Assembly: GCF_002234675.1 (NCBI RefSeq)
Contig: NC_019860.2
Coordinates: 15,368,536 to 15,432,535 of the forward strand
DNA length: 64,000 nt
Direction of reading: 5' to 3'
From: Oryzias latipes
Lineage: Eukaryota; Chordata; Actinopteri; Beloniformes; Adrianichthyidae
Below the pieces are notes generated by a model that ran no database searches, was not told the DNA's origin, and worked only from the letters and a program-made list of their open reading frames with translations. Every line of letters begins with the position of its first letter. Positions within the stretch are counted from its first letter, which is position 1. Below, piece by piece: positions 2,370 to 60,428 of the stretch. The translations under genes and the position numbers were made by a program.

Positions 2370-5300
2370 TTATTCGTCATCTTCCTCCTTCTTTTTCTTC
2401 TTCTTCTTCTTTTTCTCTGTTGACTGAAGAGTAAATGTGAGCAGTTAGAACAGGATTCCAGATTTTGCCCCCACAAACGTTTGGCCTAAGGCTCACCTCC
2501 ATTACTGCCACCTCCTCTTCCTCCTCCTTTAGCTCTTCAGCTGGTTCCTCCACTGCTTTCTTGTCCTTTTTCTTCTTCTTTTTCTTGGGCGTCTCCGGTT
2601 CGGCTGAAGTTTCAGGCGTTTCTTCTGGAACACACATGGTCAAACTTGAGCGTCGTGAACATCTCAACCCCCCCGCGGCGTCCCTTCATCACTTGCTCAC
2701 CTTGAACTTGGGGCTCTTTCTTTGGCTTCTTGGACTTCATCCCCGATGTGGTGGGCTCCTCTGCAGCCTCCTGCTGCTCCACCTCCTCGAATTTCCTCTT
2801 CTTTGAGGTGGAGGGGATGGTGGAGTCTCCAGATGGATCGTAAATTTTCACCTCGCTGAAAACAAATCAACACATGTCGCACAAACGTGCAGAAGTAAAG
2901 GATCCCTGCAGAGAGGAGTGCTCTGCTCCTAACCTCTTGTGTTGGTATTTGTCAGCCCTCGCCATGGCTTTGCCAGAACCGCTGATTTTACGGATCTGAA
3001 ATGGAAGATTTGGTTATAAGTAACTGAGATTATGGCATCAAAATGGTGTTAAAATAGAAGACGTTTTAAAAAAATATATATATTCAAGTCATGATTCCAA
3101 TAATTCACAATTTAGATTCTAATCATCTTTGGTACCTTCTACGGCATATAAAGTTATAAATAAAGTTTGTAGAGTTTGAATGGCGTTGGCACGACGAGCG
3201 AGCAAAAGCAGCTCATTTAATTTAAATTTTTACTGGCACATTGTAAAAATGTAATACACGGATCAATCCTGGATCAAGGTGAGCAAAACGATAGGTCATG
3301 CAATATGAACATATTAGGAATGTGGGCGTGGCTAACAAAAAACATCTGCTTCCAAGAATATCCAAACATTGACTTAAGCCGACTCTGATGAAAATTACAC
3401 CAATCTGTTCGGCGGCCCCAGGGGACCGAAACATTAAATGATTGCTATGGCGACAAACCGGCAGAAAAGCGTCCATTTTGAAAAAAAAAAAAAAGGGACA
3501 GCCACTTAAAATAAAATAATAATAAAAAATTCGAACTTTTAAAATATAGAAATGAAATGGCAGGAAATCCTGAAATCTTTTACGTACCCCCCTGTCCTCC
3601 AGCTGCCGGAGTCTGGCCTCCAGCTTGGCTCGGTTCTCGATTCCCATTTCGGCGTTCGTGTCTTCTCCCAGAGCGTCGTAGCGAATAGCCAGCGACGCTT
3701 TTGCAGCGAGCATTCTGGAGATCTGCAGAGGAGGTGAAAGGATTGTTCAATTTTTTTTTATTCTTGATGGTGATCAGTCATCATTTATCCCTCCCTCGGT
3801 TCTCCGGAACATACTTTGCCCTTGTTCTTGGCAGTGGTCTGTCCCACTAGGGAGGCGTGGTAAATGAGACCATATTTGGGCGTATCTTTGCGGGTCTTCA
3901 GAGCTCTGAAAAGAGCTTTCTCTGCGCCCAGGATCTGCACCGTGGAGGCCGGATGCTTGGCCAGATTCAGAAGTGAACCTGAACACGAAAGAGTTAAAAA
4001 ATAAAATATTAAGAGTGGCAAATATGATCTGAACTTGGTGTTGAGGAGAAAATAGCCTAAAGAATATGAGCTCAGAAGAGGTAGTGACTTAAAACCGTCA
4101 TCAGATTCAGGAAAACGACGTTTTGTCCGCATCATCATTGCCCGCCTTGTTCCCTCTCTGCTGCACAAAACCTACCGGCATGCGAGATGAGCCGGGCGCC
4201 AACCAGCTCGCCCACCATCACCGTCAAGTTGGGAGCGATGGCCGTCATCCGGTTCTTCAGGTAATCGTAGAGCTGTGCGCGGTAATCCGAGATCTCGATC
4301 ACCTGGGGAGGAAGCAGATCCGTTTGAAGGTCGCGCAGGAGACAAACGCTTTGGCGCCGCGGCGAGCATCACGTGACAGTTCAGATGAGGTAGTGACTGA
4401 AAACCCACACGGGGATATTCAGGATGAAGACAACTGTCGACATCATCAGCACTGCCACTGCTACTCCACAAACCTTTGAAGTCAGACCTATCAGCAAAAA
4501 GACTCTTCTTTGGGATCAGACAGATCGTTTCCGATTCAATTTACTTGAGATTTTCAATAGAGTAGTTCCATTTATTTGCAGACAAAACATGCCCAATAAA
4601 ACCCAAAAATGTTTAGTTTTGGATGCATTCAATGCTTATCCAGAAAAATCATTTTAGTGAATTGTGAGAAACTTTCATGCGAAGATCTTCTTGAATGCAT
4701 AAACTCCTTCAGGCTACTGGAAAATGTTCGACTCGACTTTGTACTTCAGCTTTTTTGTTAAGTTAATTTTTAAATAATAATCTGTGTCATGCTTAATCAA
4801 AATAAAGCTTCAATTCCACAAAAAAAAAAAAAACTTCTTTGCTTTTTGAGACATGAATGCAGAGAACATTAAGCTACAACGATTATTTAGACCTAACAAT
4901 TTAGGAGACTATAAGTTCCAATCTGGACTCAGTTTTTAATTTTCATTTAACAATTTGCAGTTGAAGTTGATTATTTAGAATTTACCATGTAATGCTAATA
5001 TTTTTGCTCTTTTCCACACCAAATTTGATCTGAGGACGCACCACCATCTACAAATATTTTTTCTTTCCTTTATCCTTAAATCCTTGGCCGACGTTTTAAA
5101 ACATAGAGCTGATTGCAATTTTGTTAACATTTCAAAATTAATAAACTACAACAAAAATACGGCAACGTAGCGCCCAGCACAGACACCAGCATGCGTTCCA
5201 TCAAGGAGAACAGACCTGATCGCAGAGATGTCGAATGTTGGCGATGTCCTGCTCCGACACTTCTGTTCCCATGGAGATTTCAGCGGCCAGCTTGACCTCT

Positions 5301-8300
5301 GCCTCCACCTCTTCTGGAAGGATCTCCGATAGATCGGTGGTCGCCACGTTTGTGCGGTCGCCTGCAGAGAGGAGGGACCAGCGTCAGCTTTCAATAACCA
5401 TGAAGGGATTGTTTTTTCTTTTCTTTTTGTTTTTAAAAAGAGAAACGTTTAAATTGTCTGTCTCAACACTGGATTCTGTGATAAAGAGAATCACTGAAAA
5501 CATCTGCAACAGTTGCAAAAAACAAACAAAACTGCACAAATTCCCATAGATTCACACTCTAGTGTAAAAAGATAACGGTTGGATTCTTACCAATTTTAAG
5601 GACAGTTTTGCAATAAGCTAAATTGTCGACGACAACCTTTCCGAGCTCGGGGAAGTGCCAGCCGTACCACTCCCTACAGCGCATGATGTAGTTATTCAGC
5701 TCCTTGTCCAGGTCGTCCAGTAGAGCTGCAGGAAAACATCCAAACCGATTATAATATACTTTTTAAAAAATTGGTTGGTTAACAAGAAACGTTTGTCAAC
5801 TTTTCCATACTAAAAAACCAAAAACAAACATGGTTGCGAAACACCCACTCTGAAGAAAACAGTGTTATTGGCGTCTTTAACATGAAGTTGGTGCATTTTT
5901 CTGAGGTGGACAAATACTAAGAACATTGAGCCCAAAATTGCATTTCTGAGGATTTATTTTTTCAAATTGTGAATCAGAAGCGGACGAAAAAAATGCATTT
6001 GTGACGCAAAGAAACGCCGGGCGGGCCACAAGCTCCCTCAGCAACAGGGAGGGGAAGAGTGGGCGGGGATCTCCACGCCGCCAATGATCCGGTTGTCACT
6101 ACCGGATCTGTAACGGCTACCAGCTTGGTGCCTGCATCCGCAAATTTTACGTCACATCCTCTTTGTGACCAACATTGTGACAACTATGCAATTTGATTTG
6201 GATTTTCTCCTTTAATTTGTTTATTTCTTGTACGCTTGTTGTTTCGAGATCGTAAACCTTGGAATTCATTGTTAAATTAGAAAAAAAAGGTAGGAGTTCT
6301 GCCTAATTTACAACGGTCCAAGCCCTTTAAACAGCAGATAACTCTGCGATCACACGAATGTATGCTTCCTTTACCCCCCCCCCCCCCCCCCCCCCCCAAA
6401 CTAAAATTACAGCTCCATTAAATAAAAGAACGCCGCCTAAACGTTATGTAAATGGTGCATGACATCATGGAAACCAGACAGCTTGGACCCATTCTCTGAT
6501 CAATTATTTCTTTTATATGAACTGAGGGCATTATACTCTGGGGAGATGCCCCCGGGGCAACTGCTGCCGCTTTAGCAATTAATGACGGGTCTATGTTATG
6601 TTATGGTGAGTGACATTGTCTCCTGGTACAATGGGGAGCAAAAGGCTGTCAAACACAACAGAAGGACACTTTTGAAGTCCTCGTGTGGTTGTCTCTACGA
6701 TAGCGCACTTCTGATCTTTAAAGTTTCTCTTTTTCTTCAGAATTAATTGTTTAAATATAAAGTCAAATACTTTAGTAGACACGTTTCACACATGTGAGGA
6801 CCAGTTGGGTTGCCCACAAGTCCGAGGCGAATTTCTGATGAACTCCTGCCGCTCTGCAGAAACTATGTCTAGAAAACGAGACACTATTTTTTTTGCCTCT
6901 GGCTAAAAAATGCCTTATCATAATTGAGGGACTGCTGGGAACCCTTTGAAAATAGATCAAAATATAACTGAAGTGGGTCTTTAGTGTCTTGTTTTTCCCG
7001 TTTCCAGCTGTTCACCATAAATACTTACAAATGGCCTGCACAATCATGGTATCCACTTTGTCGGGGCTGAACTTGAGCTTGTAACGGGATAAACTGGGGG
7101 TAGAGGAAAAACAACAAAACATAACCTGGTTAGTTAATAATGAAGAACGTTCTACAACAAAGAAGAACGTTGAAAAAGAGCTGATGCCTCAGTGGTAGTG
7201 ACGAATGCTGATGGAAATCCACAGACGTGTTTCAGACAGCAGAGTGTAATCATAGGCAATACCAGCAGCAGCAACACAGCTCTGCACAACTAACCTGTGA
7301 GCCAAACCGAGGGACATGGCACTCATCTCTTTAGGAGGAAGTCCAGAGATGAGGCTCTCCATCTGGCTCCTGATGCATCTCATCAGTTCAGCCACAGCGG
7401 AGCTGTGGACACAGCTCAGCTCAAGCTTGTCCTGAAACCCAAACATCATCAGAATAAAGACGACACACTGCAGGCAGAGTGTTTGACACAGATTTGATCG
7501 CTTACTTTAATTACTCCACCAAGTTTGGCATCGCTGACAGCAAGCTCCTCGTGGGCTTCCTTGGCAACGACTTTCTTTAAAACTTTCTTCAAACTCTTCC
7601 CGATTTTCCCCTCCACCAGGGCGGTTGCAGCTTCACGGTAGAAGAAAGGTAAAGTTCTATTTGTGGGCTCAATTTTATGTGAATTGCGAATTTGTTGTAG
7701 ATGAATCAGACACAGAAAATTATGTATGTAAAGGTGGACAGTTGGACAAAAGCTGTACCTGCTAGAGCCTCAGTTGTGTCAGTGAACTTCTCAAAATGCT
7801 TCAGTTTGACTCTAAAAACAAAAAGAATTCAATTTATACTTTCAGTAATATAAAATAAACTTACAATGTGATAACCCCAAATGTATATACACTTACACTT
7901 TATTAGCTTTCTCAGGAGTTTCAAACTCCTTATAAAGACTGTCGACTTGCTGCAGCTTGGATTCATCGAGAACCTACAAAAATAAAAGAAATATGGAGGG
8001 ATAAAATTAATTTAACAAGTTTCAATCGATACCAACCAAGTTGTGGTGAGTGCCCACGTGGTTACAGGCCTGCAGAATGCTAACCAACTTAAAAATCAAA
8101 CTTGAACAAAAGCTCACTTCAGCACATTTGATTTCAATTGAATAAGCTTAACCTGTACGGCACTTTTGTTTCCAGCTCGAAAAAAATACAACAGGAACAG
8201 ACTACGGTCATATTTTTTTATGCTAACCTAAGCTAACTCGTTAGCCAACAAGAACAAATAACATTTGAGTTTTTAATATTAAATAAAAGGAATAAAGGGG

Positions 8301-8356
8301 ATGCGAATTACCTTGAAAATAGCATATCCTGCGGCGGTTTCAAATAAAACTAACAT
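2370..8356 (-). CDS. nop58: Nucleolar protein 58, box C/D snoRNP core protein (15 exons)
   Basis: NOP58 is one of the four core proteins of box C/D snoRNPs, which direct 2'-O-methylation of rRNA in the nucleolus; it pairs with NOP56 and binds the C/D motif.
Exons in transcript order: 8356-8312, 7973-7897, 7811-7759, 7630-7506, 7431-7295, 7093-7029, 5725-5591, 5361-5216, 4302-4176, 3978-3815, 3722-3588, 2995-2934, 2855-2701, 2624-2497, 2423-2370. Every junction is GT-AG and the sum is 1608 nt (535 residues; human is 529). The protein starts [15 protein letters not shown]. The NOP5 N-terminal domain is followed by the coiled coil (exons 5-8) and the Nop RNA-binding domain (exons 9-11), with the conserved [13 protein letters not shown] and [10 protein letters not shown] motifs. 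The tail is rich in KKE/D, as in other NOP58 proteins.
Three introns carry C/D snoRNAs. The gene is divergent from nufip1. The exact splice point is ambiguous by a base or two at a few junctions. Confidence 0.96.
4070..4142 (-). ncRNA. snord11: Box C/D snoRNA, SNORD11-like (copy 1), intronic in nop58
   Basis: Lies in the intron between nop58 coding exons 9 and 10. On the minus strand I see a C box ATGATGA (near 4140-4134), an internal D' CTGA, a C' TGATGA, and a D box CTGA (4075-4072). Upstream of the D box is GTCACTACCTC, complementary to GAGGUAGUGAC of 18S rRNA. The fifth base before the D box pairs with the first G of GGUA, which is Gm509 in human numbering and the known SNORD11 target. 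Human NOP58 introns also host SNORD11. The ends are approximate because the terminal stem is weak. Confidence 0.85.
4377..4454 (-). ncRNA. Box C/D snoRNA, SNORD11-like (copy 2), intronic in nop58
   Basis: Lies in the intron between coding exons 8 and 9. On the minus strand a CAGT/ACTG terminal stem (4454-4451 with 4380-4377) encloses a C box TGATGATG, an internal CTGA and a D box CTGA (4384-4381). The guide CAGTCACTACCTC sits at the same distance from the D box as in the 4070-4142 copy, so it targets the same 18S G (human G509). This parallels SNORD11 and SNORD11B in human NOP58. Outside the guide and boxes the two copies differ greatly. Confidence 0.85.
5838..6992 (+). repeat. MITE family A, interrupted copy in a nop58 intron
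   Basis: Positions 5838-6060 match the left part of family A, with 'cacccactctga', then 'gcatttctgaggattta', then 'gggcgggccacaagctc'. Positions 6800-6992 match the right part, with 'gaggcgaatttctgatgaac', then 'gccgctctgcagaaac', ending 'agtgggtcttta'. The middle is replaced by unrelated sequence that includes a 24-base C run. This is the largest nop58 intron (5726-7028). Confidence 0.6.
6374..6397. repeat. Poly-C tract (24 bases)
   Basis: Uninterrupted C homopolymer within a nop58 intron. The length may be a sequencing artefact or polymorphic. Confidence 0.95.
7185..7259 (-). ncRNA. snord70: Box C/D snoRNA, SNORD70-like, intronic in nop58
   Basis: Lies in the intron between coding exons 5 and 6. 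On the minus strand a TGCCT/AGGCA stem brackets an imperfect C box (ATGATTA), an internal D' CTGA and a D box CTGA (7192-7189). The guide CGTCACTACCA immediately precedes the D box. Its fifth base pairs with the A of 18S GGUAGUGACG, three bases downstream of the SNORD11 target, which matches human Am512, the SNORD70 site. Human SNORD70 is also a NOP58 intron RNA. The C box departs from RTGATGA, so the 5' end is the least certain part. Confidence 0.8.
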
Positions 8357-9111
8357 TTTGAAGCTTTACTATGTTTCTTTCCTTATGGCGTGCTCGCCCC
8401 AACGAGCGGACACGTTTTTTACTGAGCACGCGCTGCCGTCCGAAAACCCCACGCGGCACAGACAGGAAGCTGTGGGGTTGCCAGCTCTGGAAAGAAAAAA
8501 ACTCAAATTCAAACATAATTCGTTTAGTTCAACCAGTACCTGGAATTTATCCAAATGTATATCGTGTAAAATTAAAAATACATATATAATATGCTATTCG
8601 ATTTTTTGAGGTGTTGAAAACTATCTTAATTGCAAATAAACAGCTTAAGTTGTTTTATTTTAGGAAGCAAAAAATAAATGAATAAATAAATAAGAGACAG
8701 AGAAAAAAAACCGATGAAATACTTATAGAATTATTCCTTATATTGATGACATTTTTTACTTGTTATAGAAAAGCATACTGACAGAGTACATATCTTAGAA
8801 TGTTTCCTTTAAACGTTTTCAATGAGCGTTCGTTCACCCCAAACATGGCAACAAGACGGTTCTTCAGAAAAACTTGCATAAATTCGGACACTGAATTTAA
8901 AAGACATAAAACACAGATCCGTACAATAAAAACACATCTGATAGAATTTAGGATACGTACAGGCATTAAATATGCATCATTAGGATACATTTAGCTTACA
9001 AATGAGTGTTTCCTGTTTTAGCGGAAGTGACGCAAAACACGCACATGTGGGGACTGCGTGGAAGTTGGGGCTTCAACAAACTTGTTTTTGAAAAGTAATT
9101 AGTTAAACAAC
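8357..9111. promoter_or_regulatory. Divergent nop58/nufip1 intergenic region
   Basis: The two start codons face away from each other across 755 bp. Near nufip1, GCGGAAGTGACGCAA (9021-9035) joins an ETS-type CGGAAGTG to a CRE-like TGACGCAA, about 80 bases before the ATG. Near nop58 the sequence is relatively CpG-rich (8390-8460, 'gagcacgcgctgccg'). The centre (8550-9000) is AT-rich with no gene visible; the opposed small open reading frames at 8763-8994 look fortuitous. Whether one bidirectional promoter or two separate ones operate cannot be told from sequence. Confidence 0.65.
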
Positions 9112-12100
9112 ATGAGTGAAGAGGGCCGTTATCCCCCTCCGGACTTCAGCTGCCCCCCAGCGAGCTCCAGCCAGCATCTTCAACAGCCTCCCCGCTTCAG
9201 CGGCTTCCAACCGGGCATGTGGAACTGGACCGAGTCGCCATGCGAGCCCAGCCGTGGCAGTCCGGCATGGCAGCACCAAGAGCCAGCACGGGGCTTTGGC
9301 TTTCAACCAGGCTGGGGAAACCATGGACATACGCATCCTTACAGTGAGTTGAACTCACAGAAATTGTTTTCAAGTTCAAAACAATTTAGGCATCAAACTT
9401 ACCCGGTTCTGGGGTTGTTTTAGGTCCAAACGTTGGATACGAATGGTATCAAGGTGGAAGAAACAACAGTGGACCTCACTACCAGCCCTGGAAAAAGGTA
9501 ATGGGAGAAAAAAGCTAACTACATAAATGTGGAGCTTGGTTAAAATCTATGAAAACTTGTGATGGGACTTGAATAGCCTGAGTTTGTGAGTCCATTTTGT
9601 TATGCCACTGACGTCACTTCATTTAACAGTTACAGACTTGGTAGTATTTCACACTCACATGTGAGAAAAACAATCACAAATGCCTCATAATTTGCTTCAC
9701 ACAACCTTTTGATTGACTCCCACAAGTCTGCCCCCTGCAGGTAAAAGTATTCTACGGAGCCCGTGTCCTGACATTTAAAAGTTAAACTATATCTCGTTCC
9801 CACAGATTAATATCTTGTTTGCACAAAATACTATTCTGTTCCCGCAAGATAATATTGTGTTCCCTCGAAATACTATTTCGTTCCCTCGAAATGATTAACT
9901 CGTGGGGACGAAATAATTAATTTGTGCGAACGAAATAATTATTCACGTCATAAGTCATTCATATACATGGATATGCTCTCCGTTCGGCCGCAAAAGCCAC
10001 TTTCAGCAGTAACTTCCGTGTCTCTGTGACCCACATTTGTTCAAGGAAGGAAAAAGAAAAACAAGAATGATCAATATTTTTGTCTCAATGATTATAAGAA
10101 AATTATCATAAGATTTATGAAACCTAGACTTGCTGCTTTGCCATACAATTCACCTGACAGAGCTCCGCTGCTGAGCTCTTTTGCTTGTCATGCCGGCATT
10201 CAGGCAGCTGGCTGGCCGGTAGACAGACAGCCAGCTGACATTGTAGTTTAGGGTCGAATAGGAATAATAATATTCAGGACTTGTCTTTTATTAACATACT
10301 CTTTAGCAGTCACTTTACATTCAAAGGCTAGTAGGCTACATGGCCGATCATTTATCCTGTTATTTACGTCATAGATTTACAGCAAATACCTTCACATTTC
10401 TGTCTGTGTGTGTCTCATTACATTGCATTGAAGACACTGAGGATGTTTAGAGATCAGATTTATTTATTTTAAAAAGCACAAAAGCAGCTGTAATCACGTC
10501 ATGTCTGGGTTCATTCACATCCTGGTTCGCTCTCCGTCCATCTTGCTGCAAAAGCCGCTTTCTGCCGCTACTTCCGTGTCTCTGTGAGCATTCAATAGGA
10601 ATAAAAATAAAAGCAAGAATGATCGATCTATTATTGTCTCGATGAAAATCAGAAGAATATCATAAGATTAGGCTGGCTGCTTAGCCTACCGGACTTAGCT
10701 TTTAGCTCTTAGCATTACAAACATGGCGGTGAGCGACATCCCGACAGGCATCACGCATACCCAAGATGCATTTCGAACAGCCACTTCAGTTGTAACACTT
10801 CAGTTACAGGGACACGGTGATTGGTCAAGGTGCACCTTGCGATATTGCTCTCATCCGGATGTGATGCTAGAAGCTACGAGCTAAGTAGTATGGCTTTTGT
10901 GCTTTTTAAAATGAATACATCTGATCTCTAAACATCCTCCGTGTCTTCAATGCAATGTAATGAGACACACACAGACAGAAGAAATGTGAAGGTATCTGCT
11001 GTAAATCTATGACGTAAAAAACAGGATAAATGATCGGCCAGATAGTTACCATGTAGCCTAATAGCCTTCGAATGTAAAGCGACTGCTAAAGAGCATGTTA
11101 ATAAAAGACAAGTGCAGAATATTATTATACCTATATTCTACCCTAGACTACAATATCAGCTAGCTGTCTGTCTACCGGCCAGCTAGCTGCCCGAATGCCG
11201 GCATGACAAGCAAAAGAGCTCCGCAGCGGAGCTATGTCCAGTGAATCGTATGGCAAAGCAGCAAGTCTAGGTATCATAAATCTTATGATAATTTTCTTAT
11301 ATTCAATGAGACAATAATAAATTGATCATTATTGTTTTTCTTTTTTCTTTTTTGAACAAATGTGAGTCACAGAGACACAGAAGTTACAGCAGAAAGCAGC
11401 TTTTGCGGCCGAACGGAGAGCATATCCGTGTTTATGAATGACTTATGACGTGAATAATTATCGCGTTCGCACAAATTAATTATTTCATTCCCACGAGTTA
11501 ATCATTTCGAGGGAACGCAATATTATCGTGTTGGGAACGGAATAGTATTTAGTGCGAACAAGATATTTATTTGTGGGAACGAGATATATTTTAATTTTTT
11601 AATGTCAGGACACGGGCTCCGTAGAATACTTTTACACTCAGGGAAAGTTTGCGAAGTTTACCACGAAAATGTCAATTAATAATATAAGGAGCACCTAATT
11701 ATCTTAAAAGGAAAAGTACCATACCGAAACCATTTTTAAATGTATGACAGCAAATGCATTACTCAGATAAGACTTTATTTATCCCACAGTGGGGAAATTC
11801 TTTTGTCTGGATGGTTCACTGGAATAACAAAGTGCAAAAATGTTTAATTGGACTAATCCAAGCATTTATGAAAAATACACTTCATGTCTAATTCCAATGG
11901 TCGGTGCTGCAGTGGCGTATCTCTGTGTAAAGGAGTTTGGGTGTCAAACTGAGCTTAAGAGGGCAAGAGGTGCATAGTAGCTTAGTGCACAAAACAGTTG
12001 CATCGTCGGATATAGTAAACAGCATAAAAATAAAAACATTTTGAACAGATGCAGCTCATAAACCATAGCAAATGTCCCAAAAGTTGTGATCATTCTAAAG

Positions 12101-15100
12101 TTCAAGGCCTTAAAAGGATGAGGTTTGATCGATGTCTCGATTTCAAAATTTTTAAAAGGAGTTAGGTTTCGAAAGCAGGGTAGTTGAATTCCATTGCCTT
12201 CATTTTAAAGTAACGAAATAGGAACGTATGCACCTCCCCCCACACACACACACCCTCGAGCAATATTGGAGCTATTCAGCCGTACAGTTTTGAGCCAGAT
12301 GACAGCCTGAGCGAAAAAAAATGATGAAGACGTAGATGGAAGTAGTCGTCTACAAGTAGATGCATCAGAATGGAGCGGGGCAGGGTACTTAGGCCCACCC
12401 AGCTTATTTCCACGCTTTTTTTTTAACTGCAATTTTTCATCTGCTCCTGATTCTCAACGATTTAAATACAGAAATACTGAGAAATGCAATTTTAACCTTA
12501 ATTTTCCTTATCTGTGATCTGCATCATAAAAAAATCCACTAAAACATTTCCGAAAAAAAACATTTTCATCGGAGTGGGTCTGAACAATGTGGTAGTTGGT
12601 CATTTATAGGGCTGCACGATATGAGGAAAACTCGCGATGTGCGATATTAGTTATCAATATTGCGATGATGATACAACTTGAAATAAATGAACAAACGGCA
12701 AAAACTCTTTTCACTGCAAAAGTTTAATTTAAATAAGAGTCAAAAGACCATAAATTATTCTCCAAATGACCCTCTTCTAATTAGGAGGGCAACAGCTAAC
12801 ATACAAAGAATAGAATAGAATAGAATGCCTTTATTGTCACTATACACATGAAGAATTCGCATCAAACGCGCATACAGTGAAATTAAAGCCGCTCACTATT
12901 CAGTGCAAACATGCATGAGAAAAGTAATCTCACAAAATAATATAATAATAAAATAAAATAATTTCACAAAATGAAGAGCACAATTTACAAAAGTACAAAA
13001 TGTACAATAGAAATTTCTGCAGAGAGGTAGTTAAAACAAAAACAAAACAAAAAACCAGCAATGCCAATGATGGCAGAGATATATTGCACTTAATATATTG
13101 CACATGATGAGATTATATTGCACATGATGAGATTATATTGCACATAATGAGATGGTGTTGACATGATGAGATGCTCATAGTGAGAGAGAGAGACATGGGG
13201 GTGGAGCTGTCAGCGTCAGTGCATGTGTGAGTTCAGGATGGTTATGGCTTTGGGGATAAAACTGTTTTTAAGTCGGTTTGTCCTCGATCTGATGCTCCTG
13301 TAGCTTTCCTGAGGGCAACAGGTCAAACAGTCCAGAGCCAGGGTGGGAAATGTCTTTTATGATCTTCCCAGCTCTGAGTAGATGTCTGACAGGGAGGGGA
13401 GAGGGGAGCCGATGATCCTGAGCTGCTTTGACTACCCTCTGCAGTCTCTCCCTGTCTGCCATGGTGCAGCTGCCGTACCACGTTGTAAAGCTCCATCCGA
13501 TTGGTCAAATGCATAAAGGCATTTATTCAAGTCATAAAATAGTTCAAGTTTCCATAAGATTGTTTTAGCACATTTAAGGTTTAACATGCGCCGACTTTCT
13601 GCTATATGGATATTGCACAGCTTGAAATCGCGATAACGATACATTTGCGATTAATTGTGCAGGCCTAATCATGTATGTTGCTAAAAGTATGCCCCTTTTC
13701 ATTTTTATGGAGCAATAATATATCTAATGAGCTGAACATTTTAATAGCTGGGTGGCTAACTTTGACTAAATTGTGTTGAAAAGATGATAAACGTAAGGAT
13801 TACTAATTTTATTAAGGATAACTTCTTAACTTGTGATTTTACTGATATAAACATGTAGATTTTTTTTTTTAAATATATAATTTTTTTTAACCCCAAAGCA
13901 GAAGAACAAGAAGGAGCCAGAGTATTCTCATTTCTGTGACACCTGTGACCGGGGCTTCAAAAACCAGCAGAAATATAATGAACACATTTCTCAGCACGTC
14001 AAGGTATCTTGTTTTCTTTTTTCTTTTTCTTTTTTAGTCATCCTATTTTCCTGACAGTTTACTTTGAATGTTGTTGTTAGTGTTCGGTGCCTGACTGCAG
14101 CTTCATGGCTCATGAGAAATTAGTCGCCATACACTGGAGACACGTGAGTAAAAGTGTTCAACTGGTACCTGGAACTTGTTAGCATCTCTTTTAACCTGCT
14201 TATGCTGCGTTGTGAACGTAGAACCATGCGCCAGGAGCGCGAAGAATCAAGCTGGACACTGAAGAAGAGATCTCCAAGTGGAGAGAAGAGAGGCGCAAGT
14301 TCGTTTTTGTTGGACTTCTTAAACGTTGGTTATCTGTTGCTGAAGTTTTGATGTTGCTGCTGGAACTCAACTTGTGTTTGTGTATGCAGAAACTATCCAA
14401 CGCTGGAAAATGTTGTAAAAAAGAGGAAAATCGTGGAACTGCGACAGGAAACGGGAGGTGTTCTTGAGACGGCTCAGTTCGGGTAAACGTGCGACTGTGA
14501 TGAAAACATGGATCCACAGATGCAGCGCAATGCCTGCATCACAATAACAGAGGCAACAATTCTATTATATCTCATTTCTTTTAAAAGAGATAAAAACAAT
14601 ATTTATTTAAAACAGGAAAAGTTCATTTTGGAATTTTGCATTTTTTTTTTACTGAATCTTGTGAAAACACTTCCTTCTGCAGATGAAAATTACAGAATTA
14701 ACTAGCTGCAGTATTCGGGCTGCTTTATTCATACTTTCCGTGTTTAATTGTATTGCTTTACAGTAAAAAAAAAAGTGCATGTAAATGTCGTTGATGTTTA
14801 ACTAAAAACCTTTGTTTTTAGACAAATTTTTGAAATGTTAGCTGTTTTTTTGTTCTTTTATTTTACTGTTTTTAATTTTTAGGTGTAAATATTGCCACAT
14901 TAGCTTTTTTTTCCCTTTTAAAAATTTCCTTTTTTCCCGTCAACATAGTTTTAAAAACTACATAAGACACTGATTTCATGGTGTTCGGGACAGGTAGAAG
15001 ATGGTGTCTCTAACTGAATGTCACCAAGGGAGTTCCTCAGGGGTTGTATTTAGAGCTACTTTTTTTTTAACTATAAAAAAAAGACTTATTTGTATCACAT

Positions 15101-17960
15101 ATAGCTTCTTAAACGTCTTTAAAAAAATCGATGTACCTTGTATCTATCAACCCTCGAGGGTTTGTATGGCAATTAAGTGTCACTTTTGATATGTTATAGA
15201 AGTAGGTCTAGTTTATTCGTTTGTAATTCTGGATATATTTTTTTTGCTTGTTTTTTTAGACGCATGAGAGGGAGAGGACGTGGGTGGAGGGGCAGGGGAT
15301 TCAGAGGACGACATCAACCAGGTCCACATCCACATCCAGCAAACCAGAAGAGTCCAGAGAACCCCAAACCCCTCAACCAGGTATCACAGGAGGGGGATCC
15401 ATTAGGAGTTCTTGCCAGTGGCGACCACGGTAGGTAGACCAGAAACTGTGTTGTTTTTTTCCATACAAGTTGTCATGAAGTTGTACTCGATCATCAAAGT
15501 TGGTGTTGAAATGAAAACTAGGATAGTTGAGATCAAGACTTTCACTGATGTGCTTGTCGTGCGCTTCCAGATTCTGACCGGGAGGACAAAGACATGAAGG
15601 CTAAAGCCCTGTTTGTGGCCCCAAAACAGATGAGCTCAGCTCTTGGCTCCCTGATGTCCAGCTATGGCTCCATGAGTGAGAGTGAAAGTGGTGATGAACC
15701 AGAGGGTAAGGTGACGTTCACCATGACGACTACACACCAGTTGTATTTAGCAAGACTTCCTGTCTATTACACTTTAAATGTGGAACTTTTCAGATCTTAA
15801 AGGGACTATATCATGCTTTTCTTAAGCCTTTCGAAGTACATTATTTTCACAACCATATGGCGCACTGGGTTATAGGGTGCAGTTTCGGTTATGGGTGCTT
15901 TTTCAGTATTTTACATGCATGCTAGTGTGTGTTTTAAAAAAAGCAGTGGGAGCAAAACTGAGTTGGTTGTGATTGATTGATTTTTATTTTTTTCAGCATC
16001 CAAAAATCCACCAAAGTTCTCATCTTCTTCCTCTTGAAAATCACCAGTTTCTGTCCATTAGCATGGCAGCCAAGCACAACAGTAAAAGCCAACCTTTCGT
16101 GCACGTTGGGTGTATCGCTACAGGGCTTGTCCCCTTCTTCTAGACACCGGGATGTCAATAGTGAGCGGCACCTTGTCCATGTTGGGGATGTGGCTGGGCT
16201 GGATGTGTTTTTCGGCAATCTTTTCACTGGAGTAGGAGCTGAAGATGTACAGCTTTTCATTGTAATCCGTTGGAAGTTGCTGCTGGGTGGGCCACCGTGG
16301 TTTTTGCCCGGATGGAATGATGATGGCGTTTCATAAAACGAAAGCACCTAAACAGAATTTTCATTTCCTCTGCAAGCGTTTCTGCCTTTAGTCGAATGGT
16401 GACTGTAGAGACGCTTCTCCCAGCTGTTCTCTGACCGTTAATCCATCACTCGAGTCGGTCTCCCAACTCGGGCCACCTCGCCTTTTTTCCGTGGAAACTC
16501 AGCTGCGTCTTCTTGACTGTCGGAGTTTGTTTTCCAGCTTCCTTCACTTGCGAAACCGTGGATTAGTTAATCTTTAATTCTCTGGCAGCTGCTCTACTCT
16601 CATGTTGCTCCCCGTAGCTGAGGGCTTGCAGTTTTAACTGCGTTTCATAGGCGTGTCTCTTTGCAGGCAGCATTTTCAGGGTTACCAAAACGACATTGTT
16701 CTTCGTAATTCACATAACTGCACTTTTGTACTATTAGGGGGTGTGTCTTCTTTCACGTCCACACTTCCCTCCTTACCGTCCTCATGCAGTCCTCTCATAC
16801 AGATGCCACGCAACAACACATTAGGCGCACCCCGACCGCACCATAGAGCGCTCGAGAGATTTTGGAGAAAATGCAAGACTTTTACGTGCGCCTTATGGCT
16901 GTGAAAATATGGTAAACTTTAACCATATAATAATGTAAAGAAAGCTTTTTTTTAAAATGAAATAAGAGTTATTTTTTCCGATACTAAGACGACGCCTCTC
17001 GTGTGGGTGCCGCCCATTTCGTGACGTCAGCCTAGAGTCATCTTCGTCAGCGTTTCTGCGTTTCGCCCACAAAAACAAAACAACATCTGAACTTTTGCTA
17101 AGATGGATGTGTATGTTGTGCATAGAAAAGGAAAATTTTTATGATTTTGGCTTTTTTGATCGATAAGGAACTGTGGTGACTAAACACGGTTACCTTAGAA
17201 ATGAATGTGTTGCCTGTGTTGCAGTTTCACCGATTCAGAGGGCTAAAGAGCTCGTCCAAGAAAACCAGACCATATTAAATGGGGCAAATTCTGGGGGCAG
17301 CGGGTCATCCAGATGTGTGGAACCCATGACGGAGACCACCCATGCTGAGTGTGGCCTCAACATGCAGAGCAGAAGAAGTGATAGAGGAGCCAGAAGAGGA
17401 AGAGGAAGAGGAAGGGGTAGAGGACATTGTGAGCCTCCACAAATACGTCAACCTACATTACTAGAAATGGTAGGGCACCATTTATTTTACCTTTTTCCTT
17501 GTGCCAGCATAATTTTCAGCAGTTTTTGATCAACTTTTTTATCTCCCCCTTTTGGGTTTTTAAGCTGCTGGCCCCTGATATCCGCCACGAAAGGAACGTC
17601 CTCCTTCAGTGTGTGCGCTTTGTTGTCCGCAACAACTTCTTTGGGCTGGATCAGACGGCAGTAAAAGCCCCCCTGGCTGCAAGGCACCATCAGCGCGTTG
17701 AGGAAACGCCAAGTAAAGTGAGCAGCGAGTCAGCCGTTCCTGCTGGTGAGGATGGACTCTCCACAGAGGGAGCTGAGGCTGATCCACTAGCTGTGAACAA
17801 TTTAAAAGAAGATAAAGATGTTGACCACATGGACTCTGCGATTTGTGATGTTTCTGCTGAAGAACCTGCATCAAAAGTCAAAAAAGCAGAAGAAAAAATC
17901 ACACCCACTTATAATGACTATGCTGTTGAGATTTGGGAGTTTAATGGGTCTTCTGTATGA
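9112..17960 (+). CDS. nufip1: Nuclear FMR1-interacting protein 1, box C/D snoRNP assembly factor (10 coding exons)
   Basis: NUFIP1 is an RNA-binding nuclear protein that, with the R2TP/HSP90 machinery and ZNHIT3, helps assemble box C/D snoRNPs by contacting SNU13 and NOP58.
Exons: 9112-9343, 9424-9497, 13902-14003, 14081-14143, 14222-14298, 14390-14482, 15260-15429, 15571-15705, 17225-17469, 17565-17960. The sum is 1587 nt, 528 residues (human is 495).
The N-terminus is Pro/Gln-rich. Residues about 112-150 hold a C2H2 finger (HFCDTCDRGFKNQQKY) and a second CX5C-type knuckle. Next is the family signature KLDTEEEISKWREERRKNYP, the SNU13-contact region, then an RG-rich stretch and the LMSSYGS acidic-serine block. 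The C-terminus carries LLAPDIRHERNVLLQCVRF. A second RG run (RRGRGRGRGRG, exon 9) looks longer than in mammals. A stop codon at 17958-17960 overlaps the approach to an AATAAA at 17961. Confidence 0.95.
9741..11635. mobile_element. 1.9 kb foldback (long inverted repeat) element in nufip1 intron 2
   Basis: The left end 'gtaaaagtattctacggagc' (9741 on) is the reverse complement of the right end (about 11616-11635). Inverted similarity continues inward for roughly 700 bases: 10419-10488 is mirrored by 10900-10960. Inside the left half, about 150 bases near 9951-10140 are also repeated in direct orientation near 10510-10690, so the structure is compound. A flanking TA on each side would suit a TA target duplication, but the ends are palindromic and this is not decisive. 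No transposase frame is seen, so it is non-autonomous. Confidence 0.85.
11766..12040 (-). repeat. LINE 3'-end fragment
   Basis: 'gactttatttatcccacagtg' read on the minus strand gives a 3' end common to fish non-LTR elements (a TGTGGGATAAATAAAGTC-type tail). The upstream part on the minus strand is LINE-UTR-like and noncoding. The exact clade cannot be assigned by eye. Confidence 0.45.
12607..13667. mobile_element. hAT-like MITE interrupted by a LINE insertion
   Basis: The left terminus TAGGGCTGCACGAT (12607 on) and the right terminus, reverse complement TAGGCCTGCACAAT (ending 13667), form terminal inverted repeats. Flanking octamers GTCATTTA and ATCATGTA match at 6 of 8 positions, as expected for an old hAT 8 bp target duplication. 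AT- and CG-rich 'cgatattg' and 'cgataacgatac' motifs near the ends are typical of this kind of fish repeat. A LINE fragment fills the middle. Confidence 0.7.
12795..13505 (-). pseudogene. LINE (Rex1/L2/CR1-type) ORF2 C-terminal fragment and 3' UTR
   Basis: Minus-strand translation from 13500 to about 13260 gives the conserved tail of this retrotransposon group, with ADRERLQRVVKAAQ, then HPGSGLFDLLPSGK, and beyond a frame break RSRTNRLKNSFIPKA-like residues. It is followed by a 3' UTR whose end is a (TTCTA)n microsatellite at about 12808-12828, as usual for target-primed insertions. The element is 5'-truncated and has lost its frame. It is nested inside the hAT-like MITE at 12607-13667. Confidence 0.75.
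15798..17115 (+). repeat. MITE family B copy in nufip1 intron 8, split by a Tigger-like insertion
   Basis: Positions 15798-15843 ('atcatgcttttcttaa', then 'cctttc') and 16908-17115 ('atgaaataagagttatttt', then 'gtgggtgccgcccatttcgtg', then 'caacatctgaacttt') are the two halves of a family B unit. The intact reference copy is at 61656-62255. The Tigger-like element sits between them. Confidence 0.75.
15844..16907 (-). mobile_element. Tigger/pogo-like DNA transposon remnant
   Basis: Terminal inverted repeats 'ttttcacaaccatatggcgc' and its near-complement at the right end (ending 16907) are flanked by TA on both sides (15842-15843 and 16908-16909), as for the Tc1/mariner/pogo superfamily. Minus-strand frames show pieces of a pogo-type transposase. 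An N-terminal KKTQLSFHGKKARWPELGD-like stretch near 16530-16440 is followed, across frame breaks, by a catalytic-region piece LAFTVVLGCHANGQK (about 16110-16060). The longest uninterrupted frame is 16347-15934. It cannot encode a working enzyme. Confidence 0.75.
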
Positions 17961-20963: not shown

Positions 20964-20984
20964 GAGAGGAGGAAAAGGTGGAAA

Positions 20985-21056
20985 CTCCCCGTCGGGGAAT
21001 CGAACCCCGGTCTCCCGCGTGACAGGCGGGGATACTTACCACTATACTAACGAGGA
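20985..21056 (-). tRNA. tRNA-Asp (GTC)
   Basis: The minus strand gives a complete 72-base cloverleaf. The acceptor stem is TCCTCGT/ACGGGGA. The A box resembles TAGTATAGTGG, the anticodon GTC is at 21023-21021, and the B box is GGTTCGATTCC. The sequence agrees with the standard vertebrate tRNA-Asp. No CCA is encoded, as usual in eukaryotes. T-rich stretches downstream on the minus strand could serve Pol III termination. Confidence 0.97.
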
Positions 21057-21770
21057 GCTGCTACATGTTTGCACTCTTTTCCACCCCCTTTATCACTACG
21101 TAAATGTCTTTGCTTACTGTGGTCCATTTGTTTGGTTGAAGGATCGGACATGGTCTCACACACACCAATTGACCTTAAACGATTAATGGACTGAGTGGAC
21201 CCCCCTCCCCCAATCCATTCCAAATAGGAAGTACCCTTTGGCTGTTGTTTGCAATGTTTTCGGCATAAATATCACTTCATATATTGCAACCAATTTACAA
21301 TTTCAGTTTGTGTGGAAAAAATATGCATCTTTTAGCACATTTTAGCACATGGTCAGGACTATTCAGCCTGAGAAACTTTTTAGAGTTGAGGGATTTTTCC
21401 TTCACTTCCACATGCCAATCGACCTAAATAGCACTCCTTTGTTTTTAACCTGAAGGTACTGAGACTCACTGGGTCCACATCCTTTGCCGCAGTCTTTGTG
21501 ATCCTGAGGAGGAAGAAGGCATATTGTATAAGATATCGAGGAAATGTGCAGCTGAAGCATCACAATACGTGTTTGGATCCCCACCAGAGGAACATCTTGG
21601 AGGTGAAGGTTAGCATTCCCAAGCCTGTATGTAAATAAAAGAAAAAGAGCTGCAAAATGGTATGTGTAGGTCTGGTAATCAGACCTACATATGTCAAAAT
21701 AATGTAAATATTTAATAGCTTCAGATTGAGTAGGGGTAAATACGTGGTTGGGACGGCAGAGTTTCTCAGT

Positions 21771-21843
21771 GCCTCGTTGGCGCAGTAGGCAGCGCGTCAG
21801 TCTCATAATCTGAAGGTCGTGAGTTCGAGCCTCACACGGGGCA
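21771..21843 (+). tRNA. tRNA-Met elongator (CAT)
   Basis: A complete 73-base cloverleaf: acceptor stem GCCTCGT/ACGGGGC with discriminator A, A box TGGCGCAGTAGG, anticodon CAT (in 'ctcataatc'), and B box GGTTCGAGCCTC-type (GAGTTCGAGCCTC). A T-run (Pol III terminator) follows after 'agctttt'. It heads a tandem array whose two later units hold decayed copies. Confidence 0.96.
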
Positions 21844-26450: not shown

Positions 26451-27034
26451 AACACAAACATTATTCGGACGCTACAGTCTTTTCTCCTTAGGTGACGTGT
26501 TTTGTTTTTGTCGCCGTGGGTTCTTTGTATCGACAGTACTGTTTCTGGAGGTTCGTCGTTCAGAAGAGGAATTGTTGCGACGGCTGGTTTCCTGCGACAT
26601 AGACAGAGAGGTCAGCAAAGAGGCTTTAACAGATTTTTTTTAATTGCACCAAAATAATGAAGGAGGTTTGTCATTTATTTTTTGTTTACTGTCAGCTATA
26701 ACCAAAGAAAGAGCTAAAGTTCTGCGTTATAGTCGCTTCTGCCGACCTAGCTAAAAACCTAGCTACATTTTTGCAGTCTGGTTATTTAATTTCGCGACAT
26801 TAAACATAGTTGTATCAGCTTTCCGGTCATGAATTAATATTGTCGTCGTGAAGTGGAGTGCCACCTGTAAGCTCGTGTTCAGACTCAAAGCGTTGTCTTT
26901 TCTGTTGTTTTTTTTTTTTCGTTTAAAAAGGACATAAATCATATGACTTGCCAGCTGACCCAGCTAACTAGCCTCTAAGTTAGCTGGTTGCAGATAATCG
27001 TTTGCAGCTTTGTCATCTTGAAAACCCGACCGAG

Positions 27035-30000
27035 ATGCACCACCAGGACTTATCTGGGGAGTCGTCGGGCTCAGGGAGCCGCAAAACGTCGTTCCACTTC
27101 AGAAGGGGAAGCAGCGGCGCGCCCGCCTCTCCTGCGGCAGCCGCTGGAGGTGGAGGGACCCCGGCTGAGGACAGCCCAGCTCAGGCCGGATCGTCCTCTC
27201 CGGCTCTCCATCACCAGAGTCAAGGACCTGGGACCCAGATGAAGAAGAAGAGCGGCTTCCAGATTACAAGCGTCACCTCAGCACAGATCAGCGTGAGCGG
27301 GAACAACAGTTTGGCCGATGACACCGAAAGCTATGATGACATGGACGAGTCCCACACCGAGGACCTGTCCTCATCTGACTTGCTGGATGTGTCCGTGTCA
27401 AAGGCCACAGACAAAGGCGTGCCGGAGAGAAGTTCCTCGGATGAGACCTTGAACAGTCTCCATGGGGTTGACACGCCAGGGCTTGTGTCACCCAACGAGC
27501 CTCTTCAGCCTCACAGCATCCTTCAGGGGGCTCAGCATCACTCATCTTTGGTGAACGGTGCGGTGCACCACCCGTATTATCCTCAAACCAGCCACCACCA
27601 GCGCTCCGACAGCTTAGGTGGAGCCGAACCATCATTGCCAACTCTGCCAGTTCAACCGCTTGCTAGCTCCAGCCCATCTTTGCTTTCTAAAGCTGGGCCC
27701 AGCCCGACCCAGAGGCCGGTGGCATTGGATAACTCCAAAGTCGTGGCAGGTCAACAACTAACCCCTCTCGTTGGGACTTTTGCTGAAACGAACATAAAAG
27801 GGGGTGTGTGCATTCCAGGTTCATCTGCCGGCCCTGCTGCCCCCTCGACACTTTCAGGTTTGGAACCCGGGCAACCGGCTTCGTCTGCTGCTGCTGCCGC
27901 TCCGGGCCCTGCCCACGGCACTCAGACGCAGCACATCCACACGCAGACGGCCACCGGCTCCCGCTTTCGGGTGGTCAAGCTGGACACAAACTCGGAGCCG
28001 ATTCGGAAAGGAAGATGGACGTGCACGGAATATTACGAGAAGGAGATTCCTCATGCGGCGCCATCTGAGGGACCAAAAGCGGCAGAGACTGCTGCCGAGC
28101 CCGAAGTGGGGAATGCTGGGATAAGCCCGGCGATTCCTGCCGTCCAGCCGCTCCACAATCTGCAGCCCTATCAGCCTCAGGGTCAGGACTTCACCAGCCC
28201 ACAAGCCATGCAGAGCCCCCCGCAGGCTCCCCAAACGGCTCCTTTGAGTTATATTTCACCCCAGGAGGTTGTTGGGAGCGTTCACCTCCAGAAACCAGTT
28301 TCTATTGCTGCTGTTCCTGCAGCTGCACCAAAGACAGATGGGAGTCTGACTCCTTTGCTAATACCCCAGCAGTTCCCCTACGCTGTTGATCCACAGCAGG
28401 TTCAACCCCAGGGAGGGTACCCCCCACCTCAGCTGCATGCCGGTGGGGTAGTGGCACCAGGAAATATCAGGCAGCCGGACTTTATCCAGCCAACCGCTCC
28501 TTTCCAGACACAAGTGCAGCCTCCACTTCCGCATTCAACGGCGGGAATCCCCGTAACCCCAGGGGTGGCGGTCCCGCCTCAGCAGCCAGTGAGCATCACG
28601 CAGCAGCTGTCACTTCACGGTCAACCACCCCAACCGGCTCCGGCGGCATTCGCTGCTGGTCAACTGCAACCACAAATCCGCCCCCCGTCTGCCGGTGCAG
28701 TCCCCGTAGCCCCGTCCCACGGGAGCCCCTACATGACTGCCCTGCAAGCTGACCTCAAACCCCTCCTGGCATCAGGGGTGAGCATTCCCCATGTGCCTGC
28801 AGGAGGGAGCTCTGTCAAAAGCTCTCAGCTGGAGGATGCCCAGAGGCTGCTCCTCCAGCACCAGGGCCTGCTGGGCCTGCCCAGGCTGGGCGCGGTGGTG
28901 GCCGCCGTCGGAGATGGGGCCGCAGAGGGGGTTGGATCTCTGGCCCACATGGGGATGTCGGCGGAGGCCAGCGCCTTCATGGTTGCTGCAGGCCTCCGGA
29001 GCCAGCATGCCGAGGGAGAGGATGACAGGTGAGAAGGAATATCCTTTTCGTCCTATAGATAGAAGGAATTGAAGAAAAACATGCAACAAAACTTCATTTT
29101 TGTTGTCTGTTATTTGTTCTTGTGTCGATTTCTCTGTCGCGTCAAAAACACTCGATATCTGACTTTGAAACAAACTGCTTAGTCATTGAGAGGGCCTGTG
29201 AGTCAGCAGATAGTCTCTTCTTCTGACCTCTAGCCATTGGCGGCGTGTTTTGTTTCTCTCATCCTTATCAGACTTTTTTTTTTTTGTTGGGGGGGGTTAG
29301 TTAATAAGCAAACTCAAAATCAGTGTTTTAGAAGTAGGCGAGCTAAAAATGGAACTGGGTCGATTCCTGGTAGACAAAAAAAACCCCAAAACTTTCCATG
29401 ACTTTGCAAGTTTGTACAGGATCACAAGTTGTGTTGCATAAATCAAAATGGAGCGCGCTCCTTTGTTATTGACGAGGAGAAACGTCGATCTTTATTTAGT
29501 TCTTGGCTGCTAATGCAGCTCGCTGCTACAACTGTCAACAGAGACAAAAGTCTTCGTCTTCAGTCGGCAGCGCTGCGTCTGATTGGTGCCATAACTCACG
29601 GGGGTCCTCTTGGTGCCGACAGCGCAGGGCTGTGTCTGCAGTGCGTCCCTGTCTGTCGACATCCAGTGTGTCAGCCCGGTTCGCAGCCATGAATCAGCGT
29701 CTGTCCTGCAGCGAGCGTCTCCCATGTCACTGTTGCGATCTGTCTGTCATTCCTGCTCTCTTCCGTTGGATTCAGAATGTTCCGCATCATCCCTGAATCT
29801 TCTGATAATACCTCTGACCCCCGCGCTCTGCTATTTTATCAATAACTGAAGAAAAAACAAAACAAAAGGTAGTTTAAAAAATAACCGGTGTGTTTGTTAT
29901 ATATGCATTAGATCTAGGGTGCATGGTGGCGCAGTGGTTAGCGCTCTTGCCTCACAGCAAGAAGGCCCCCGGCTGGGGGACCTGAAACAGAACATCAATG

Positions 30001-33000
30001 GGGGGCCTTTCTGTGTGGAGTTAGCATGTTCTCCCCGTGCATGCGTAGGTTCTCTCTGGGATCTCCGGCTTCCTCCCACCGTCCAAAAACATGCTTCATC
30101 GGTCAATTAGCAACTCTAAATTGAGCATAGGTGTGAATGGGTGTGTGATTGTGACCCTGCGACAGACCTGCGACCTGTCCAGGGTGTCCCCCGCCTTCGC
30201 CCACGGCAACCCCGTGACGCCGAAAGGGAACAAATGGAAGAAGATGAATGAATGATTAGATCTAGGGCCAAAAAAGATTAGGAACTGATCGTAACTTAGA
30301 AAAGCTATTGAGCTAAAAAAAAAAAAATCTGTTTTATAAGGGAATTTTTAAAAGCAATGAAACGGCTTTTTTTTTAGTTTTATTATAAAAATGATAGCAA
30401 ATATTCTACTTTTCGGTTTAACATTTATTGTGGTCCACTATTTTACTAATAACTGAAACAAAAAGCAGTGAAGTAAAAGTCCATCGTGTTTTATTATAGA
30501 TTAGATCTGGCTATAACAAAAAGAAATTGGAATTGATTGTTACTCAAAAAACCAATTAAAAAGAAAAACGGCCTTTCTTATCACAAAAGTTGCATCAAAA
30601 ACTGCACTTTTGTTCAGTTCAAAATAACTGGTTTTGTGGTTTTTTTTCATCCAAACAAAACTAGTTTTAGAATAGAACAGAATCATGACATTTTTTTCAC
30701 AGCTCCATAAAAAACAGCAGCAAATTGTAAATTAAACGGATTTGTAAACCTATAATCAAAGTCAATGAGGTTTAACATGTTTACATTGATATGGAGCCTA
30801 ATGAAGGCAATGATTTACAATGATGGAGAACGCTGCAGGTTTTATGTGTGAGAAGTTTTTTCTATATAAAAATAGGTTTTTTGCTTTCTGTTGTTTCGTT
30901 TTTGGACGGCAAACGGACTAAAAGTTAATGTCATACAACAATAAAGGACATGTTTATTATACGTAGGTTGAGAATATTCCTAGACACTTTAGTAACTCAT
31001 TAAATAAATGCAAAAATAATTATGAAATTTACAAAGGGGTTGTCACAGCTGGTTTTATACATAACCAATAAGTTTTAAGAATGAGAATACCAGTAATATC
31101 AAATTAAATTTGCCCTTACAGGGGCAATAAATCAAATCCATTTGTGCCAAATTTGGTCAAATTTGAATTTGTTGAATTCTTAATTGGTAGATGAAGTTTT
31201 CCATCCTGAATATTTCTAAGACAAAATACCAAATCAATCATCCAAAGTTTTCCTTGCCACCAAGAGCGACTGCGCTTATTTGATCTCAGTCTTACGAGAC
31301 GTTTTTACGTCCCAGAAGTTATTAAAAAATTGTTTTTGTTTTGTTTTTTCTATTTGACTGCATGCATTTTAAAATATATTTCTTTTTCCTCATTTACAAC
31401 AAGCACGTTAAGTGGAAGTTAAGGAAGAATCAGTTCTCATAAGCTGCTTCTTTGATTGGAAATACTGAATTGTCGGGAGTCAAACATTTTTCTTGGACTT
31501 CTGACAGAAAAGACTTCGATACTTGAATGTATTTTGCCTTTTTTTTTAATAGATCAAAGCAACAAAACAATAAAAAAGAAGGCAATATTCGGATAGTTTT
31601 TGCCTATAAAATCCGTAATCAGAACCTCAATTTATGCCTGAACTCTGCGTTTGTTTCAGCCTTTCTGCCTTTTTTTTGCAGCTGCAGACGAAGGAATCTG
31701 TCTTAAACAGGTTCTTATACCTTCCAGGCTTATGATCTTAACCTGCAGATTTTCTCAACCCCTCGTTTGATTTTTGGATGAAAGCCACCTTTGACTGTCC
31801 TTTCGTTGAGAGAAAAGCGCTGCAGAGAAAAATCACTTTTTCCTTTTTGTTCTGTTTATTTGCAGACAGACAGACGTTTTAGTCATTGAAATGTAGGTTG
31901 TATATTCTTAATACCGTGTTAATAGTCTTTCTGTGTGCAAGATAAAACGCTTTAGAAGAGTATTTTGCAACTATAAACCTTCTGGCCCATTAATGGGATC
32001 AGTTCTCTCTGACTTCATCCTCTGGAGCTGGAAAACACAGTCGGCTCATTGTTTGCCCATAAACTGCTCTAACAACGTTCCTCCTAAAACCAGACCAGCA
32101 GTTGCGCTTTTCTTTCTTTCTTTGGCGTCTTGTGACCTGCTTTTCTTCCTTTTTTTTTTTTTGTGTGTCAAATTGAATCCCAACAGGTTGGCAGCGCTTT
32201 AGTCCGTCCACATCGGACAAACGTTGCGGTTTGGACACAAAGCGAAACGTTAATGAATGAGTCAGGCAGGTAGTTTGTAAGGAATCAGGTCGTTTTATTT
32301 ATTTTTTAATGCCAAACAAAAGCAAGTCTGGATGCACAAACTATTGCAATGTCTTGTGCGTGATCACACAAATGTGCCGTTTACCAGTAATGCTTTGCTG
32401 GCGCTGATTGATTTATACATCTATACTTTCTTCTGTTATTAGTGTTACAAAACTTTTGTTTGTTCAGTTGTTTTTTAATCTAGTGCTTTGTCAAACCCTT
32501 TTTTTAATTTATTCCTATACTAATCAATAAAAAAACCCAATTTATTTGCTGGGTTGGATCTTTATTTTTCCTAAAAACTAATATGATTTCAAAAGAAATA
32601 ACTTCTTACTAATCCAGATCCTAAAAGAAATCATAAAAATTAAAAGTAATTTTTCGACCTGATGCAATTTATAATTCTTTAAATGAATATGTATTCGTTT
32701 TGTAACATGTTTTGAAATGTAATGAATAATATCTGAGTTTTATGAAGTCTTTTTATTGGTTGACTAAATCCAAATCTAAACCGCCCACGAGTGAAATATT
32801 TTCTTTTCAAACTGGTTTCTTGTTTTTTAATCATGCTCTCATTATTAGCTTGTCATTTTTAGGGTGGTGTCTCCTACCTGTCAAGCATAATAAATCACCT
32901 CGAACAGATTTCTGCCTCAGCAGACACGCTGCCTCTAGGTCAGGTATTGATTTGTCCACAAGGGGGCAGCAGAGGGCCACGAAACCTCCAAGCTAAAATA

Positions 33001-60078: not shown

Positions 60079-60428
<350 letters not shown>

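Follow-up and report, generated by a model that had tools for sequence, protein, structure and literature searches.

The nop58 and nufip1 genes of the medaka Oryzias latipes are intact, correctly named and divergently oriented neighbors, an arrangement that is real but of a common kind. We explain it, with moderate confidence, as an ordinary head-to-head pair with a rearranged partner, in which separate core promoters would lie inside a single unmethylated stretch of DNA. The window analyzed here is a 64,000-nt stretch of the forward strand of NC_019860.2 (positions 15,368,536 to 15,432,535); the coordinates of its relevant features are collected in Table 1.

The nop58 model was built by spliced alignment guided by a human NOP58 query, with the C-terminal exons placed by hand at clean splice sites; all 14 introns are of the GT-AG type and leave a single open frame closed by a stop codon. 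The product matches the Pfam families Nop (292.1 bits) and NOP5NT (82.6 bits), and its best relative in the PDB is 'Nucleolar protein 58', chain 7mq8_SB, which we take to be the human protein (E 2.6e-248, 827.9 bits over residues 1-534), compared with 319.5 bits for the NOP56 of entry 7mq8 and about 127 bits for PRPF31. Thus, the two domains and the far higher score against NOP58 identify the product as NOP58 rather than NOP56 or PRPF31. The nine introns of nufip1 are all GT-AG as well and its frame ends in a stop codon; the product matches Pfam NUFIP1 with 63.2 bits (cut-off 23.3), and its residues 402-432 match the C-terminal NUFIP1 segment in entry 5l85 (chain 5l85_B, E 3.5e-8), presumably the human ZNHIT3 complex, in which this segment would be the one that binds ZNHIT3. 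The splice models and the Pfam and PDB matches bear out the gene identities and the head-to-head order proposed in the first-pass annotation, and the spacing of the divergent start codons given there stands as well. Searches that reach close relatives only, and in which a match would mean fish contamination, yielded no relative of NOP58 in viral or prokaryote contigs and none of NUFIP1 in viral contigs. An assembly misjoin, which would make the whole neighborhood an artifact, is extremely improbable, given that the 64-kb window contains no N letter anywhere, both genes are complete on either side of the gap, and the gap itself reads as promoter-like sequence.

Table 1. Features of the nop58-nufip1 neighborhood (window coordinates)
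Feature	Position	Strand	Description
nop58 coding region	2370..8356	-	15 exons, 535 aa; spliced alignment, Pfam, PDB match
Second SNORD11B-type C/D snoRNA	4065..4146	-	nop58 intron 9, ends 86 nt before exon 10; 52.0 bits
SNORD11B-type C/D snoRNA	4374..4457	-	nop58 intron 8, ends 71 nt before exon 9; 72.5 bits
SNORD70-like C/D snoRNA	7180..7266	-	nop58 intron 5, ends 86 nt before exon 6; 34.6 bits
Gap between start codons	8357..9111	.	755 bp, GC 35.1%, CpG observed/expected 1.12
Putative nop58 core promoter and 5' leader	8357..8500	-	GC 52.8%, 11 CpG; assigned by composition
ETS site joined to CRE-like site (GCGGAAGTGACGCAA)	9021..9035	+	candidate nufip1 core promoter element
nufip1 coding region	9112..17960	+	10 exons, 528 aa; splice model, Pfam, 5l85_B
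Presumed tsc22d1-like gene	26984..44759	+	ORFs 26984-29032 and 44445-44762; TSC22 95.6 bits for 44445-44759

The fact that most alters the picture comes from the literature and concerns the partner of NUFIP1 in other vertebrates. We take human NOP58 and NUFIP1 to lie on chromosomes 2 and 13, respectively, and KIAA1704 to be a synonym of GPALPP1. NUFIP1 and KIAA1704 are listed as a human head-to-head pair whose expression is correlated at 0.487 (PMC3024869, Table 4). NUFIP1 and GPALPP1 are also neighbors in gene lists, given without orientation, for cat (order KCTD4, GPALPP1, NUFIP1, a tRNA, TSC22D1; PMC10969784), cattle (order SERP2, TSC22D1, NUFIP1, GPALPP1, GTF2F2; PMC12111605) and chicken (adjacency in the list; PMC12837823). 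In the window, the next recognized protein gene downstream of nufip1 has the same orientation and encodes a TSC22 box; we infer that the TSC-box exon and a preceding long open frame, the 682-aa product of which has no Pfam match, form one gene, which we label tsc22d1-like from its position beside nufip1. No tblastn match to GPALPP1 was obtained in the window at E values up to 1 with the one query used. Considering the TSC22-box neighbor together with the lack of a GPALPP1 match, the far side of nufip1 looks the same as in mammals, and nop58 occupies the place of GPALPP1. NUFIP1 has a divergent neighbor in both the human lineage and that of the window, with different partners. Two tRNA genes, for tRNA-Asp (GTC; 20984-21057, minus strand) and tRNA-Met (CAT; 21770-21844, plus strand), are located between nufip1 and the tsc22d1-like gene, and the cat list shows a tRNA Glu (UUC) in the matching place between NUFIP1 and TSC22D1 (PMC10969784).

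A chromosomal rearrangement would account for these differences by giving NUFIP1 different neighbors on its start side in different vertebrate lineages, nop58 here and GPALPP1 in the three mammals (human, cat and cattle) and probably in chicken. The gene orders fit a change in either direction: under one reading, nop58-nufip1 was the ancestral order of jawed vertebrates, and tetrapods lost it once GPALPP1 had become the neighbor of NUFIP1. We consider this reading quite improbable. In a survey of adjacent ribosome-biogenesis genes, which by its own account underestimates such pairs owing to its sampling, the counts were 6/106 in C. elegans, 0/110 in D. melanogaster and 0/118 in human (PMC3500266, Table 2); the survey offers no hint of an ancient pair common to animals, and as evidence it is weak, given this underestimate and the uncertain inclusion of NUFIP1 in its set. 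By the same human count, a nop58-nufip1 pair conserved among fish would be unusual.

Head-to-head pairs are usually defined as adjacent, divergent genes with transcription starts less than 1 kb apart. The 755 bp between the start codons of nop58 and nufip1 are within this limit; the transcription starts may lie elsewhere if either gene has a non-coding first exon. Medaka has 1737 divergent pairs, comprising 13% of its genes, with ncRNA processing and ribonucleoprotein complex biogenesis overrepresented among them; the pairs are co-expressed in 50-52% of cases in gonads and brain and in 37-40% in liver (PMC11676430). Using the number of 1737 divergent pairs and an assumed 24,000 genes, 0.27 divergent pairs are expected by chance within a set of 300 ribosome-biogenesis genes and 0.0004 within a 12-gene C/D snoRNP set. 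The latter value would make the match improbable for a set fixed beforehand, but these 12 genes were chosen with the pair already in view, and genomes hold many comparable small sets. The functional match between the two neighbors is, accordingly, suggestive and not significant beyond chance. Of 1447 human head-to-head pairs that were sorted by their conservation in mouse, chicken and fugu, 14 are kept to fugu, and the distance between the starts shows no significant relation to co-expression among human pairs (PMC3024869), so that the length of the gap in medaka is no argument against co-regulation. Within the library and terms that it covered, our literature search found no published report of the nop58-nufip1 gene pair; judged by title and opening of the abstract, the papers that name both genes concern snoRNP biology and not gene order.

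The composition of the gap is uneven, with GC-richer ends and an AT-rich middle: beyond the nop58-proximal part (Table 1), the GC content drops to 28.5% in 8501-8980 and rises to 39.7% in 8981-9111. Segment 8541-8690 is among the lowest 0.8% of 150-bp stretches in GC content, and segment 8350-8499 is in the top 4.2% by CpG count. The CpG observed/expected ratio of the entire gap is reached by just 0.6% of the stretches of the same size in the window (the value for the window is 0.65), and the AT-rich middle has a ratio of 1.13; the CpG density is unremarkable, at 34.4 per kb, a value reached by 25.8% of the stretches. The notion that CpG is confined to humps at the two ends was rejected, as the control found CpG to be undepleted throughout the gap. 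This pattern looks like one continuous unmethylated region that would span both starts, as expected of a shared promoter, and it counts against two fully separate promoters.

Other signs in the gap point to two promoters. On the nufip1 side, there is an element that we take to combine an ETS site and a CRE-like site; its core, CGGAAGTGACG, occurs once in the 64 kb, both strands considered. ETS-CRE composites are a known type of housekeeping promoter. In total, 15 motif patterns were tried on the gap, uncorrected for this number of trials, and eight of the 15 matched nothing; no weight is given to the minor matches, namely the ETS-core AGGAAGC at 8464 and 8662, CACGCG at 8427 and 8450, two overlapping TATA-like motifs at 8582-8589 and pyrimidine runs at 8376 and 8489. 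A scan of the gap for sigma-70 promoters and terminators was discarded as meaningless for vertebrate DNA. The mean GC content of divergent fragments in medaka is 42.06%; among non-overlapping pairs, 49.68% of the fragments are shorter than 400 bp (PMC11676430). The GC profile, the one-sided ETS-CRE element and the length and GC content of the gap set against these medaka values suggest a separate core promoter for each gene, roughly 500-600 bp from the other. The sequence signs in the gap thus point both ways, towards one promoter and towards two.

Taken together, the GC anatomy, the one-sided ETS-CRE element and the gap-wide CpG are best fitted by two core promoters within one open region. 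Under the preferred explanation, nop58 and nufip1 would be two growth-linked housekeeping genes, each most likely with a core promoter to itself, and the two promoters would be embedded in a putative common unmethylated stretch. The nop58 core promoter would occupy the GC-richer part just above the start codon of this gene and that of nufip1 the surroundings of the ETS-CRE element, with the AT-rich segment as a spacer between them. In growing cells, both genes would be switched on, and transcription of nop58 would additionally yield the intronic guides through splicing, the route taken by other C/D host genes.

The main competing explanation posits a true shared bidirectional promoter in the gap, such that the core protein, the assembly factor and the guides would constitute one module, with selection keeping the pair together in fish. 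The divergent start codons and the short distance between them, a CpG ratio that only 0.6% of the same-size stretches reach, the presence of NUFIP1 and NOP58 in one assembly intermediate (PMC8162545) and the enrichment of medaka divergent pairs for RNA processing, along with their frequent co-expression (PMC11676430), are all compatible with this scenario. Nevertheless, we regard it as possible but on the whole unlikely: the gap is longer and poorer in GC than typical medaka divergent fragments (PMC11676430), the ETS-CRE element is present on the nufip1 side only, and housekeeping genes would be co-expressed without sharing a promoter.

An RNA-free pre-complex has been described as containing SNU13 and NOP58 together with NUFIP1, ZNHIT3, BCD1, RUVBL1 and RUVBL2 as five assembly factors (PMC8162545), and NUFIP1 as a tether that joins 15.5K with NOP56, NOP58 and fibrillarin (PMC9406135). 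The earlier statement that both products act on the same particle is correct in outline, through this shared assembly intermediate (PMC8162545, PMC9406135). NUFIP1 binds to SNU13 and keeps the complex inactive, and NOP58 is recruited by R2TP with HSP90 (PMC8162545, PMC9406135); furthermore, RUVBL1/2 plus NUFIP1 repressed the co-precipitation of 15.5K with NOP56 or NOP58 (PMC9406135). Hence, of the proposed loading of NOP58 and SNU13 by NUFIP1, the interaction with SNU13 holds, whereas NOP58 is brought in by R2TP/HSP90 (PMC8162545). The link between NUFIP1 and NOP58 is real, but they are no simple loader-cargo pair.

The presence of three C/D guides in nop58 introns, which the first-pass annotation had also asserted, is confirmed in two cases and only likely in the third. 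Both SNORD11B-type snoRNAs pass the Rfam gathering cut-off, which is 50 bits for SNORD11B as well as for SNORD70, and the SNORD70-like match fails it (E 0.052 for 19 kb). The other 6 of the 9 listed Rfam rows, snoR09, AfaR, MIR4239, MIR5998 (two) and sR14, are far under their cut-offs and were dropped. When antisense elements were scored on a segment of 18S rRNA, the SNORD70-like snoRNA showed 12 nt of perfect complementarity and the SNORD11B-type copies 11 nt each; at the fifth position ahead of the D box, the former pairs with an A and both of the latter with a G, which we take to be A512 (SNORD70) and G509 (SNORD11B) of human 18S. Since the D box, the guide and the intron position all agree, the SNORD70-like snoRNA probably functions like SNORD70, although it remains outside the family by the curated score. 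The two SNORD11B-type snoRNAs, in adjoining introns, carry an identical 11-nt guide.

Human NOP58 presumably hosts SNORD11, SNORD11B and SNORD70; the guides would then be long-standing in nop58 and have no tie to nufip1. The literature search found no paper naming NOP58 together with SNORD70 and SNORD11B. Most box C/D snoRNAs are reported to have a conserved place in the intron, a distance of about 50 nt ahead of the branch point being optimal (PMC8162545), and the distances of the nop58 snoRNAs from the next exon fit this rule.

A bolder combination of these observations is that NUFIP1 swapped its head-to-head partner from GPALPP1 to NOP58 in a fish lineage, or the reverse, and that one promoter region serving NOP58, the three guides and NUFIP1 has been kept by selection. 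We rate this scenario as clearly unlikely. If true, the partner swap would have made a natural snoRNP-assembly module through gene order. Should the pair turn out to be conserved and driven together, it would be a natural experiment on whether gene order helps to balance the core protein of a particle against its assembly factor, with tetrapods, in which NUFIP1 lies beside GPALPP1, as a built-in comparison; otherwise, nop58-nufip1 is one divergent pair among many, 1737 in medaka alone (PMC11676430).

Several repeats were noted in the window. Intron 2 of nufip1 contains a foldback (inverted) repeat of about 1.9 kb (9733-11643), in which six of the arm pairs (66-211 nt) are nested and 90-97% complementary; it looks like a mobile element and, once transcribed, could fold into a long double-stranded hairpin. 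The MIR4239 row of the Rfam search, which is under the cut-off, falls in the left arm of this repeat. Remains of a Tc1-like transposase are found at 38135-38972, in two overlapping frames that match HTH_Tnp_Tc3_2 and DDE_3. At 60001-60477, long YLSI repeats are present in all three plus-strand frames, probably reflecting a tandem repeat with a short unit.

Among known systems, the closest to the arrangement described here is the human NUFIP1-GPALPP1 (KIAA1704) pair, which is likewise divergent with close starts and shares NUFIP1 with the medaka pair; the difference is in the partner, nop58 here, and a shared promoter is only putative for the medaka pair. The human NOP58 host gene resembles nop58 in the guide families housed in its introns, and differs in that the second SNORD11-type copy in medaka scores as SNORD11B and the SNORD70 copy is under the Rfam cut-off. 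Finally, the adjacent RRB gene pairs of yeasts and other eukaryotes, in which divergent, tandem and convergent orientations all occur (PMC3500266), similarly place two ribosome-biogenesis genes side by side; for those pairs, co-regulation and conservation were measured in fungi, whereas for the nop58-nufip1 pair both are putative.
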